From: Streptomyces showdoensis | Lineage (GTDB): Bacteria > Actinomycetota > Actinomycetes > Streptomycetales > Streptomycetaceae | Assembly (NCBI RefSeq): GCF_039535475.1 | Contig: NZ_BAAAXG010000026.1 | Span: 3,343,501 to 3,407,500, forward strand | Direction of reading: 5' to 3' | DNA length: 64,000 nt | Part shown: positions 37,843 to 42,363 of the stretch, piece by piece | Layout: every line of letters begins with the position of its first letter | Position numbering within the stretch: position 1 is the stretch's first letter | Translations under genes and position numbers: made by a program | Notes under the pieces: model-generated | The model's database searches: none | Seen by the model: only the letters and a program-made list of their open reading frames with translations | Told to the model about the DNA's origin: nothing

Positions 37843-38496
37843 TCAGGCGGCGCTGAGCGGGAACTCGCCCGCCAGCTCGCGGAACACCGCCCCGTTGAAG
37901 TCGAAGGCGCGCTTGCACTCGTCGACGATCCGCTGCTTCTCCAGGTCGTCCGCGTTCACGGCGTCGAGCAGCTCCCGGTACCCCCGCTTGAAGGCGGCGG
38001 GGTTGCCGATGGCGTCGAACACGTAGAACCGCACGCCGTCGCCCTTGCGGGCGAAGCCCCAGGTCCGCTCGGCCTTGTCGCGGATGATCTGGCCGCCCGA
38101 CAGGTCGCCCAGGTAGCGGGTGTAGTGGTGCGCCACGTAGCCGGCGGGCCAGTCGCGGGCGCACTCCGCGACCCGCGCCGCGTACGCCTCGGTGGCCGGC
38201 AGCGCGGTGAGCCCGGCGCGCCAGCCGGGACCCCGCAGGTGGGCGAGGTCCTGTTCCAGGGCGGCCGTGCGGAACAGCTCCGGCTGTATGAAGGGCCCGG
38301 CGACCGGATCGGCCTTCAGGGCCTCCGCGCCCTCCTCCAGGGCGCGGTACACGAACCAGAGCTGCTCCGTGTAGCGCGTGTAGGCGTCCACGGCCAGGCG
38401 TCCGCCCAGGAGGTCGCTCATGAACGTCGACGACTCGGCTTCCGTGTGCTGCTCGTGCGAGGCGGTGCGGATGAGCGTCGAGAAGGGCGTGTCCAA
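37843..38496 (-). CDS. hmuO: Biliverdin-producing heme oxygenase
   Basis: A 217-residue all-helical enzyme. SHEQHTEAESSTFMSDLLGGRL aligns with corynebacterial HmuO, which places the proximal heme ligand at His17. HHYTRYLGDLSGGQIIRDKAERTWG holds the distal-helix glycines. It opens imported heme to biliverdin, CO and free iron. It completes the heme uptake genes upstream and has its own iron box at 38543. ATG 38496 gives the usual short N-terminus. Confidence 0.95.
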   Translation of the reverse strand: MDTPFSTLIRTASHEQHTEAESSTFMSDLLGGRLAVDAYTRYTEQLWFVYRALEEGAEALKADPVAGPFIQPELFRTAALEQDLAHLRGPGWRAGLTALPATEAYAARVAECARDWPAGYVAHHYTRYLGDLSGGQIIRDKAERTWGFARKGDGVRFYVFDAIGNPAAFKRGYRELLDAVNADDLEKQRIVDECKRAFDFNGAVFRELAGEFPLSAA

Positions 38497-40019: not shown

Positions 40020-40733
40020 CTAGGCCCCGCCCGCCGCGAACCGCGCGGTCGCCAGGACGGTCCCGTCCGCGGCGAGCAGCCGGACCCCGGCCGGTGCCGC
40101 GGGGCCGACCTCGGCCGGGGCGGCCCAGTAGCCGTACCCGTCCCGCAGCGGGAACGAGCCCAGCACCGCCGAGCCGCCGCCGGCCGCGTCGAGCACGCAC
40201 CGCACCGGGCCTCGGCCCCCGCCCTCCAGGTCGACCGACATGTACACCCAGCCCGGTCGTCCCGGCTCCCCCGGGTGCGCGAAGACCCGGCCCACCTCGT
40301 GCCCGCCGGCCGCGACCAGGGCCGCCTCGAAGAGCCCCGGGTGCGCCGGCTGCACCGCCGGCGCGCTCTCCACGACGGTGCCCACCGCCCACCCTCCGAA
40401 CCCGCAGGCCAGGGCCGCCGCCAGCGCCGCCGCGGCCAGCCGCAGCCGGTGCCGCCGCCCGCGCCACCGCGCCGCCGGGGCGGCGGGCGCGGGCGCCGGA
40501 GCGGGTGGCGCCAGCGCCGCCACCACCCGGCTCTCGAAGCCGACCGGCGGCTCCGCCTCCGGCAGCAGTCCGAGCAGCCCGTCCCCGACCGCCGTCAGCT
40601 GCTCGACGTACTCCCGGCACTCCGGGCAGCGGTCCAGGTGGGCGACCGCCTCGGCCCGCTCCCGGGCCGGGAGCACCCCGAGCGCGAGCTCGGCACCGAG
40701 CTCGCGCAGCCGCTCGCACTCCGCGCCGCTCAC
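40020..40733 (-). CDS. Anti-sigma factor (zf-HC2, RskA-like)
   Basis: A 237-residue inner-membrane regulator. N-terminal zinc-binding anti-sigma domain with His32, Cys36 and Cys39 (AHLDRCPECREYV), a single transmembrane helix near residues 93-115, and an extracytoplasmic RskA-type C-domain (WVYMSVDLEGG ... GVRLLAADGTVLAT). It should hold the adjacent ECF sigma factor inactive until cleaved. The GTG start overlaps the sigma factor TGA (GTGA), which couples their synthesis. Confidence 0.92.
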   Translation of the reverse strand: MSGAECERLRELGAELALGVLPARERAEAVAHLDRCPECREYVEQLTAVGDGLLGLLPEAEPPVGFESRVVAALAPPAPAPAPAAPAARWRGRRHRLRLAAAALAAALACGFGGWAVGTVVESAPAVQPAHPGLFEAALVAAGGHEVGRVFAHPGEPGRPGWVYMSVDLEGGGRGPVRCVLDAAGGGSAVLGSFPLRDGYGYWAAPAEVGPAAPAGVRLLAADGTVLATARFAAGGA

Positions 40734-41305
40734 CGCTCCTCCTCCCGCTCCAGGACCGCCCGCAGCTTCGCCGTCCCCGCCCTGATCCGGGTCTTGGCGG
40801 TGCCCAGCGGTACGGACTCGAACGCGGCGACCTCCCGCGCCGTCATCCCGTAGATCCCGGCCATCACCAGCGCCCGCGCCTGCTCGCGCGGCAGCGTCGA
40901 AACCGCCCTGCGGACCCGTTCCGAGCCCTCCTCGGCCTCCGCGTGCCGCTCGGGCGTGTCCGTCACGGCGCCGAGCAGCGCCTCCAGGTCCTCGGGGGCG
41001 ACGGGACTGGCCCGCCGGGCCCGTACGGCGTCGATCGCCAGGTTGTGCGCGATGGTCGTCAGCCAGGTCCGCACCGAGCCGCGCCGCGGGTCGTACACCT
41101 GGGCGTGCCGCCAGGCCCGCTCGAAGGTCTGCTGGGCGATGTCCTCGGCCAGCTGGGGGTCGCCGACGACGGCGAGGGCCACCCCGAAGACGGTCCGCTG
41201 GAAACGGCGCACGAAGGCCACCGCGATCTCCTGGTCGCCCGTGGTCAGACCGGAGAGCAGTGCCTCGTCGGGTACCCGCCCGAGGGACGGGCCCATGCGC
41301 CGCAT
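40730..41305 (-). CDS. ECF sigma factor (SigK-like)
   Basis: A 191-residue sigma-70 region 2/4 protein: region 2 (RRFQRTVFGVALAVVGDPQLAEDIAQQTFERAWRHAQVYDP, then RTWLTTIAHNLAIDAVR) and region 4 (LVMAGIYGMTAREVAAFESVPLGTAKTRIRAGTAKLR). Two ATGs compete: 41311 and 41305. I prefer 41305 because the predicted promoter places transcription start about there (see 41313-41340), which would make a leaderless mRNA. It is coupled to the anti-sigma gene. Confidence 0.88.
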   Translation of the reverse strand: MRRMGPSLGRVPDEALLSGLTTGDQEIAVAFVRRFQRTVFGVALAVVGDPQLAEDIAQQTFERAWRHAQVYDPRRGSVRTWLTTIAHNLAIDAVRARRASPVAPEDLEALLGAVTDTPERHAEAEEGSERVRRAVSTLPREQARALVMAGIYGMTAREVAAFESVPLGTAKTRIRAGTAKLRAVLEREEER

Positions 41306-41312
41306 ACCCATG

Positions 41313-41340
41313 GATACGTCTCGCGGCCCCGAAGGGATTG
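41313..41340 (-). promoter_or_regulatory. ECF-type promoter for the sigma gene
   Basis: On the minus strand: CAATCC (41340-41335), a 16-base spacer, then CGTATC (41318-41313). An identical arrangement occurs on the other strand (41365-41392), and both resemble the CCATCC-N16/17-CGAATA promoters of SigK-class sigma factors. Confidence 0.7.
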
Positions 41341-41364
41341 CCTGCCGCCATTCTCCGCCCCGCG

Positions 41365-41392
41365 CAATCCCTTCGCGGGGCCCGGCCGTATC
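41365..41392 (+). promoter_or_regulatory. ECF-type promoter for the cupredoxin gene
   Basis: CAATCC (41365-41370), 16 bases, CGTATC (41387-41392). Same boxes and spacing as the divergent promoter. The predicted transcription start is near 41400, just ahead of the ribosome site GGAGGA and ATG 41412. Confidence 0.7.
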
Positions 41393-41411
41393 CCCTGCGG
41401 AGGACCGAACC

Positions 41412-41963
41412 ATGAACGGAACCACGAACGGCACCACGCCCGCACCGCGCACCCGCCGAACCCGCGGCCGGATCGCCCTCGGCCTGTCGGGCGCGGCCCT
41501 GGCCGGCTTCCTGGCCGCCTGCGGAGGCGGCGGCGGAGGCGGCGCCGGCACCCCCGCCCCGGCCCCGCCGCCGTCCACGGCGACCACCGGGAGCACCGGT
41601 ACCGCGGGGGCGACCCAGGTGAAGGCCGACCTGACCGACTTCCACATCGCGCTCTCCCCGCAGCCCTCCCAGCCGGGGCGGTACACCTTCGTCGCGAAGA
41701 ACGACGGACAGCACGAGCACGCCCTGGAGATCGAGGGCAACGGCGCGGAGAACCGCAGCAGCACGCTCGCCCCGGGCGAATCGGCCACCCTCACGGTGGA
41801 GCTCACGTCCGGTACCTACCAGGTCTACTGCCCGGTCGACGGACACAAGGACCTGGGGATGAAGACGCAGATCACCATCGGCGGCGCGACGAACGGCACC
41901 GCCCCGAGCGACGGGAACGGCCATGGGAACGGAAACGGCACCGGCGCCGGCGGCGGCTACTAG
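41412..41963 (+). CDS. Cupredoxin-domain lipoprotein
   Basis: A 183-residue protein with a lipobox (LAACGGGG, Cys37) and a Gly/Ala/Pro-rich linker, then a cupredoxin domain with the type 1 copper ligands: HEHALEI (His101/103) and YQVYCPVDGHKDLGM (Cys140, His145, Met150). The C-terminus is Gly/Asn-rich. It could shuttle electrons or bind copper outside the membrane. Divergent from an ECF sigma gene that appears to drive it, so it is a probable target of that sigma factor. Confidence 0.9.
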   Translation: MNGTTNGTTPAPRTRRTRGRIALGLSGAALAGFLAACGGGGGGGAGTPAPAPPPSTATTGSTGTAGATQVKADLTDFHIALSPQPSQPGRYTFVAKNDGQHEHALEIEGNGAENRSSTLAPGESATLTVELTSGTYQVYCPVDGHKDLGMKTQITIGGATNGTAPSDGNGHGNGNGTGAGGGY

Positions 41964-42363
41964 GGCGGGGCACGGCGCCGTGACGGTCCTGCTGCGGCTG
42001 ACCGCGGCCGCCCTGACCGCCACCATGGCCGCGATCCACCTGCACCTGTGGGCCGACGGCTACCGGGACCTCGTCACCATCGGCGTCCTGTTCCTGCTCA
42101 ACGGCATCATCGGCCTCGCCCTCGCGGCGGCGCTCCTCGTGAGCCCCGCCCGCCTCCTGGAGCCCGTCGCCGCCGGCACCGCGCTCTTCACGGCGGGCAC
42201 CCTGGGCGCGCTGCTCCTCAGCCTCACCACGGGACTCTTCGGCTTCAGGGAGTCGACCGCCGCGGACCTGGTCGTCCCCACGCTCGCCGTGGAGACCGCC
42301 GGGGTCCTCGTCCTCGCGGCCCTGGCCCTGCGCGCCCGGCCCGACCGAAAGGCCACGAGCTAG
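41923..42363 (+). CDS. Small four-helix membrane protein
   Basis: A 146-residue protein with four transmembrane helices and conserved HLHLW at the start of helix 1. It overlaps the cupredoxin gene by 41 bases, so it belongs to the same ECF-controlled transcript. It overlaps the convergent MFS gene by four bases. The likely role is an accessory membrane partner of the cupredoxin, an inference from context. Confidence 0.8.
   Translation: MGTETAPAPAAATRAGHGAVTVLLRLTAAALTATMAAIHLHLWADGYRDLVTIGVLFLLNGIIGLALAAALLVSPARLLEPVAAGTALFTAGTLGALLLSLTTGLFGFRESTAADLVVPTLAVETAGVLVLAALALRARPDRKATS

Follow-up and report, generated by a model that had tools for sequence, protein, structure and literature searches.

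Gene content of the divergent locus

The window, by which we mean the whole 64,000-nucleotide stretch of Streptomyces showdoensis DNA under analysis, contains a sigma factor gene and a cupredoxin gene that diverge from a 106-bp intergenic region, each followed by a second gene on its own strand. The features are as follows.

40020..40733, minus strand: putative membrane anti-sigma factor P0002, known from its translation, with an HxxxCxxC zinc motif; overlaps the sigma stop by 4 nt (GTGA)
40730..41305, minus strand: ECF sigma factor P0001, 191 aa, with Sigma70_r2 and Sigma70_r4_2 above the Pfam cut-offs; predicted leaderless start at ATG 41305
41313-41340, minus strand: predicted autoregulatory ECF promoter of the sigma/anti-sigma operon, −35 CAATCC (41335-41340), 16-base spacer, −10 CGTATC (41313-41318); exact match
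41350..41355, minus strand: third conserved element, GAGAAT within GGAGAATGG, candidate −10 of a second sigma-gene promoter
41365-41392, plus strand: predicted ECF promoter of the cupredoxin operon, −35 CAATCC (41365-41370), −10 CGTATC (41387-41392); exact match
41412..41963, plus strand: cupredoxin lipoprotein P0003, lipobox LAAC with Cys37, presumed type 1 Cu ligands His103, Cys140, His145 and Met150
41923..42363, plus strand: four-helix membrane protein P0004, starting at ATG 41923 or, more likely, GTG 41980

P0001 belongs to the ECF (group 4) sigma factors, with scores of 75.5 bits for Sigma70_r2 (cut-off 24) and 34 bits for Sigma70_r4_2 (cut-off 25.7), and we found no close paralogue in the window's genome, where the next sigma factor is 38% identical. 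The zinc motif of P0002 reads HLDRCPEC, and HxxxCxxC, the ZAS N-terminal motif, was present in all 81 anti-sigma matches at the sigma loci described below, 72 of which also had a strongly hydrophobic 19-residue stretch. P0002 itself scored under the cut-off for NCBIfam antisigma (65.9 bits, cut-off 100) and for zf-HC2, its only Pfam match (19.1 bits, cut-off 22.2), and had no Pfam match to RskA_C. Past the anti-sigma gene, on the same strand, lies a frame (37843-38496, minus) that by eye resembles heme oxygenase.

P0003 scored 22.1 bits for Copper-bind (cut-off 21.2) and 21.9 bits for Cupredoxin_1, under the cut-off of 27, and its structure model is all beta over residues 68-156. Its type 1 copper ligand set, an assignment that we take over from plastocyanin-type proteins, and its lipobox cysteine were invariant in 22 of 22 aligned sequences. 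The description of P0004 as a four-helix protein, made in an earlier note on this DNA, agrees with its AlphaFold2 model, which consists of four long helices (mean pLDDT 92.1). Residues R25, H39, E110 and E124 of P0004 were invariant in all 29 aligned sequences; the protein had no match in Pfam or PHROGs, and fold comparison returned generic bundles only. GTG 41980 is the likelier P0004 start because shorter homologues such as P0005 (127 aa) begin in this way.

Two copies of one promoter motif

CAATCC-N16-CGTATC occurs once on each strand of the window with the same boxes and spacing, as the earlier note had claimed, with exact copies at 41313-41340 (minus) and 41365-41392 (plus). The genome search that the note had proposed returned two exact copies in 8,497,953 bases, both at this locus, and allowing one mismatch added six further places. 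With two mismatches allowed, shuffled windows averaged 1.83 matches, such that a loose match within a single window is meaningless. The looser pattern AATCC-N15-19-CGTAT was found in ten places in the genome, compared to one for the pattern read backwards. Both sites look like ECF promoters. On the sigma side the −10 box ends 7 nt before ATG 41305, a distance so short that a normal ECF start point would fall on or next to the start codon, and a leaderless sigma mRNA is probable. For the cupredoxin operon, the predicted start gives a leader of ~13 nt that contains GGAGG.

Without the last base of the −10 box, CAATCC-N16-CGTAT occurred in four places in the window's genome, two at this locus and two in one duplicated sequence elsewhere. 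The latter are identical on two contigs, C8 and C21 (L089 and L090), which suggests a duplicated stretch, and a near-identical copy of this site was seen in a genome that lacks the sigma factor (G161). Another site, AATCC-N16-CGTAT at 121375-121400 of contig C28 (L097), which departs from the full motif at its first and last bases, lies ~90 nt before a frame that by eye resembles catalase-peroxidase (KatG). Judged from downstream open frames alone, the other sites in the window's genome outlined no defined copper regulon, and the regulon there is probably little more than this locus.

Conservation of the sites at sigma loci of relatives

Conservation was assessed at 81 loci, which comprised the window and the best 80 of 164 relatives found in a genome scan with P0001. 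The cupredoxin gene was divergent to the sigma gene in 33 of these loci, hereafter linked, and the other 48 were unlinked. Both sites were present in all 33 linked loci: the sigma-side site within three mismatches (0, 1, 2 and 3 mismatches in 15, 15, 2 and 1 loci, respectively) and the cupredoxin-side site within two (0, 1 and 2 mismatches in 8, 18 and 7 loci), compared to best scores of 4 and 3 mismatches, respectively, in a control with one composition shuffle per locus. A −35 box, spacer and −10 box that match between the sigma gene and the target operon, as in an autoregulated ECF promoter pair, are therefore kept in 33 of 33 linked loci. The cupredoxin-side motif was exact, CGTATC included, in only eight of the 33, many having CGTACC at the −10 position. 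At unlinked loci, the sigma-side site was found within two mismatches in 46 of 48, compared to only 7 of 48 for the divergent side.

The spacer was held at 16 in these mismatch counts, and lengths from 13 to 19 were tried separately. Of these, 16 alone scored best for the sigma-side site at all 81 loci and for the cupredoxin-side site at all 33 linked loci, and the divergent side of the 48 unlinked loci had no preferred spacer overall. At 29 of the 33 linked loci, 34-35 nt separate the beginning of the sigma-side site from the start codon; the value of 41 nt for the remaining four arises from alignments that began at residue 3. Among the relatives, two loci (L036 and L050) had a DoxX gene divergent to the sigma homologue with the same promoter motif in between. 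At one locus in G292 (L145), cupredoxin and anti-sigma genes were adjacent with no sigma match between them, and the cupredoxin promoter had three mismatches.

Coupling of site and sigma factor across Streptomyces genomes

We scored the sigma factor as present at E ≤ 1e-60, which gave 48 sigma-positive genomes among 295 Streptomyces; one genome (G224) in which a cupredoxin-linked sigma matches only in part was counted as negative. Genes similar to P0003 (E ≤ 1e-8) were found in 29 of the 295 genomes, 15 beside the sigma gene and 14 not. A site with at most two mismatches occurred in the 330 nt upstream of the aligned part in all 15 linked genes and in 6 of the 14 unlinked genes. Among the unlinked genes, the site was present in six of eight from sigma-positive genomes and in none of six from sigma-negative genomes (Fisher one-sided p = 0.009, with an effective number that is lowered by common ancestry of these genes); the two sigma-positive genomes without it were G292 and G237. 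Of all the results, this one argues most strongly that sigma factor and site are coupled, since gene adjacency cannot account for it.

CAATCC-N16-CGTAT occurred in 124 places in 86 of the 295 genomes: 38 within 300 nt of the sigma gene, 34 farther from it in sigma-positive genomes and 52 in sigma-negative genomes. The motif was found in 42 of 48 sigma-positive compared to 44 of 247 sigma-negative genomes, and in 25 of 48 compared to 44 of 247 when only places more than 300 nt from the sigma gene were counted (p = 1.7e-6), the window's genome being included in both counts. We read 32 of the 34 sites away from the sigma gene; the other two are the duplicated sequence in the window's genome, which was read separately. 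Thirteen of these 32 precede a member of one of three gene families (cupredoxin, 3; a second four-helix family, 5; His-rich secreted protein, 5), compared to none of the 52 sites in sigma-negative genomes (Fisher p = 5.6e-7). As the four-helix and His-rich families were first noticed in G016, G020, G033 and G040, these four genomes are not independent, and with their exclusion the comparison becomes 8 of 26 versus 0 of 52; the four-helix and His-rich families turned up again in five further genomes (G101, G146, G164, G237 and G275).

In 12 of the 13 cases the match begins within 330 nt of the site, and one four-helix gene lies 883 nt on. Profile alignment related the second four-helix family to the P0004 family with 95.7% probability, one side of the alignment holding only two sequences. 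A query of the window's genome with the second family gave no match, a null of little weight by the search's own terms. One of the 32 sites precedes a second, shortened sigma factor with its anti-sigma, and the remaining 18 precede none of these, although one adjoins a different ECF on its other side. Many of the 19 sites without the three families are probably due to chance. No cupredoxin, four-helix, His-rich or DoxX match was found near the 52 sites in sigma-negative genomes, three of which had a distant ECF at about 34% identity.

The proteins behind the motif in five sigma-positive cases (L112, L113, L116, L226 and L228) are small, secreted and rich in His and Phe; the one that was scanned, at L112, belongs to no Pfam family. 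Two short frames that follow the motif in other sigma-positive cases (L233 and L246) begin alike, with M(G/A)IFTxLxP, and may be a further target family. Taken across genomes, the comparisons establish the identity, spacing and conservation of the sites as sequence features, together with the coupling of site to sigma gene in trans.

Proposed circuit and alternative readings

We consider it highly likely that the ECF sigma factor and its membrane anti-sigma with a zinc motif constitute an autoregulated envelope-response switch that reads both promoters. An outside signal would inactivate the anti-sigma and free the sigma factor, which would recognize CAATCC-N16-CGTA(T/C)C on both strands of the intergenic region. 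Leftward transcription would yield a leaderless sigma/anti-sigma mRNA and hence positive feedback, and rightward transcription would supply the two proteins of the cupredoxin operon, P0003 and P0004, which probably work as a pair in the envelope for copper or electron transfer. Transcription start points, autoregulation, anti-sigma action and the function of the output are what we infer here. The earlier proposal that one sigma factor both autoregulates and drives the cupredoxin/four-helix operon is well supported by sequence comparison, given that every linked locus (33 of 33) has both sites with a spacer of 16 and that site and sigma gene are coupled in trans.

The earlier note had also singled out matching inverted arms, GAAGGGATTG / CAATCCCTTC, around the promoters. 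The arms are present, and they sit within a longer inverted repeat of 30 nt per arm (41312-41341 and 41364-41393, 77% complementary) that spans both promoters entirely; as a feature of their own they did not stand, being merely the two −35 boxes of divergent promoters with outer bases and separation that vary. Across 33 loci (32 relatives and the window), the two −35 boxes differed from each other in 12, and the identical run past the box was zero bases in 18 and five bases in just two, the window included. The palindrome is thus explained by two divergent promoters and not by a conserved operator. That the inverted repeat is instead an operator for a dimeric regulator, with the promoter resemblance secondary, would fit its long, largely complementary arms and its centre between the genes. 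Against this, the gap between the −35 boxes ranges from 24 bp, in the window, to 121 bp over the 33 loci, the bases past the boxes are unlike on the two sides, the site also stands singly at unlinked cupredoxin genes, and spacer and −10 box are kept as in a promoter, such that we regard an operator as extremely improbable. The window has the shortest gap of all, which may lead two polymerases at its promoters to interfere with each other.

Two further alternatives concern which sigma factor reads the sites and what the circuit senses. The window's genome has its own SigK/RskA pair on contig C25 (sigma, 260.9 bits, cut-off 226; anti-sigma RskA_C, 100.2 bits), and ~1.8 kb from this dyad is a divergent CAATCC-N16-CGAAT pair at 2876 (minus) and 3012 (plus) of the segment C25:6000-16000 (L160). 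One side of that pair faces a gene for a His/Trp-rich secreted protein, and on the other the site overlaps what is likely the start of a molybdopterin oxidoreductase gene, which makes its role there uncertain. If these were its sites, the SigK-like factor and the window's sigma would have the −35 box in common, and their −10 boxes would be distinguished by a single base. The common −35 box lends some weight to the idea that another sigma of the same genome, such as this factor, reads the promoters and that the neighbouring sigma does not, but the −10 boxes differ (CGAAT versus CGTAT) and the presence of CAATCC-N16-CGTAT tracks that of the window-type sigma over 295 genomes; we find such a substitution very unlikely, though another ECF with similar boxes could partly cross-read the sites.

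The circuit might also be a specific copper sensor, in which excess copper leads to loss of the anti-sigma and the cupredoxin binds or oxidizes copper. The invariant type 1 copper site of the cupredoxin and the His-rich secreted proteins among predicted co-targets in relatives point this way, but a type 1 copper site is commonly an electron-transfer centre, the DoxX genes divergent to the sigma gene in two relatives are as compatible with redox as with copper, and no sensor residue or copper-gene target was found. A parallel that favours a copper sensor is offered by another Streptomyces ECF, SigG1, which in the excerpted text of PMC7730460 is needed for copper tolerance. On balance a dedicated copper sensor seems unlikely, though it merits more weight than either an operator or a substitute sigma factor. 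Within the autoregulated envelope-response switch, a role for copper as cofactor of the output is plausible, given the complete, invariant type 1 ligand set of the cupredoxin, and would not require copper to be the signal.

A third conserved element and possible nested starts

On the sigma strand, the sequence between the two promoters contained GGANAAT in 28 of 33 linked loci, compared to none of 33 single shuffles, and the same pattern was found in the 90 nt upstream of the sigma −35 box in 19 of 48 unlinked loci and in none of the single shuffles. In 42 of the 81 loci (the best 80 of 164 relatives and the window), a start codon followed 5-8 nt after xA[GCT]AAT. In 39 of these 42, compared to a chance expectation of one third, the codon lay at −57, −60 or −69 relative to the sigma start, in its frame and without an intervening stop, and the gap from element to codon was exactly 6 nt in 38 of the 39. 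The element thus resembles a housekeeping-type −10 box that serves a leaderless start, and the result would be an N-terminal extension of about 19 residues that encloses the ECF promoter. No −35 box was visible for it in column counts of 47 loci. The element may alternatively have a ribosome-binding role.

The other 39 loci had no such start codon. The window is among them, and in the window and its nearest relatives the element is kept and the codon absent, four relatives having a stop in that frame. In a tree with a very long outgroup branch and some unresolved forks, the window's sigma lay among cupredoxin-linked relatives without the extension, which suggests that the extension was lost in the window's clade.

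A wider reading, which we advance tentatively, combines two nested leaderless sigma promoters, the short form made by feedback, with a regulon of envelope parts re-attached by the same promoter. The outer, housekeeping-like −10 (xA[GCT]AAT, six bases before GTG/ATG) would give a sigma factor with ~19 extra residues, and the ECF promoter encoded inside the extension would give the short sigma once the system is on, such that feedback would alter both the protein and its amount, in an arrangement that reverses SigR/SigR'. In the window's clade, the upstream start codon would have been lost and the outer element kept. The regulon would consist of mobile parts for envelope metal handling or electron transfer, namely type 1 cupredoxin, four-helix or DoxX membrane proteins and His-rich secreted proteins. 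If this were true, feedback on the sigma gene would change which sigma protein is made.

Comparison with known systems

This analysis assigns a defined promoter (CAATCC-N16-CGTAYC) and a compact predicted regulon to a sigma factor of unknown function and makes a reporter readily available for it, and since the link between site and sigma holds over 295 Streptomyces genomes, targets in other species become predictable. Among the matches listed from the open-licence literature, by title and start of abstract, none describes the sigma, the promoter, the cupredoxin link or the nested starts; within those matches a system of this kind is familiar, and descriptions of this promoter, of these targets and of a second nested promoter seem to be absent.

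The SigK regulon of Mycobacterium tuberculosis is small and its products are secreted. Like SigK/RskA, the window's system is an ECF sigma with a membrane anti-sigma and predicted autoregulation, and SigK is the best NCBIfam model for P0001. It differs in that P0001 reaches only 117.7 bits against the model's cut-off of 226, P0002 lacks RskA_C, and the −10 box is CGTAT. P0001 has no cysteine, as is the case for 71 of the 81 sigma sequences, so the SigK-type redox cysteine pair is absent. In the mycobacterial system (ECF19), the available text of PMC7509140 describes autoregulation and conserved promoter sites that control mpt70/mpt83, and a redox pair of SigK, Cys133 and Cys183, that is kept in 56% of ECF19 and is not strictly defining. 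SigG1-RsfG of Streptomyces tsukubaensis (ECF56) is likewise a Streptomyces ECF system, and the parts of PMC7730460 at hand assign it metal-homeostasis targets, a C-terminal SnoaL_2 extension on SigG1 and no binding peak near SigG1's own promoter; the window's sigma, by contrast, is a plain two-domain ECF.

The nearest precedent for nested starts is SigR/SigR' of Streptomyces coelicolor, in which, according to the portions of PMC4921905 and PMC5472188 consulted, two nested promoters, one of them autoregulatory, give a long and a short sigma, and it is the upstream promoter that is autoregulatory and produces the long form, which is unstable. The window itself offers no codon from which a long form could start. 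In relatives of its sigma, the ECF promoter is the inner one and is predicted to make the short form, an order of promoters opposite to that which these sources describe.
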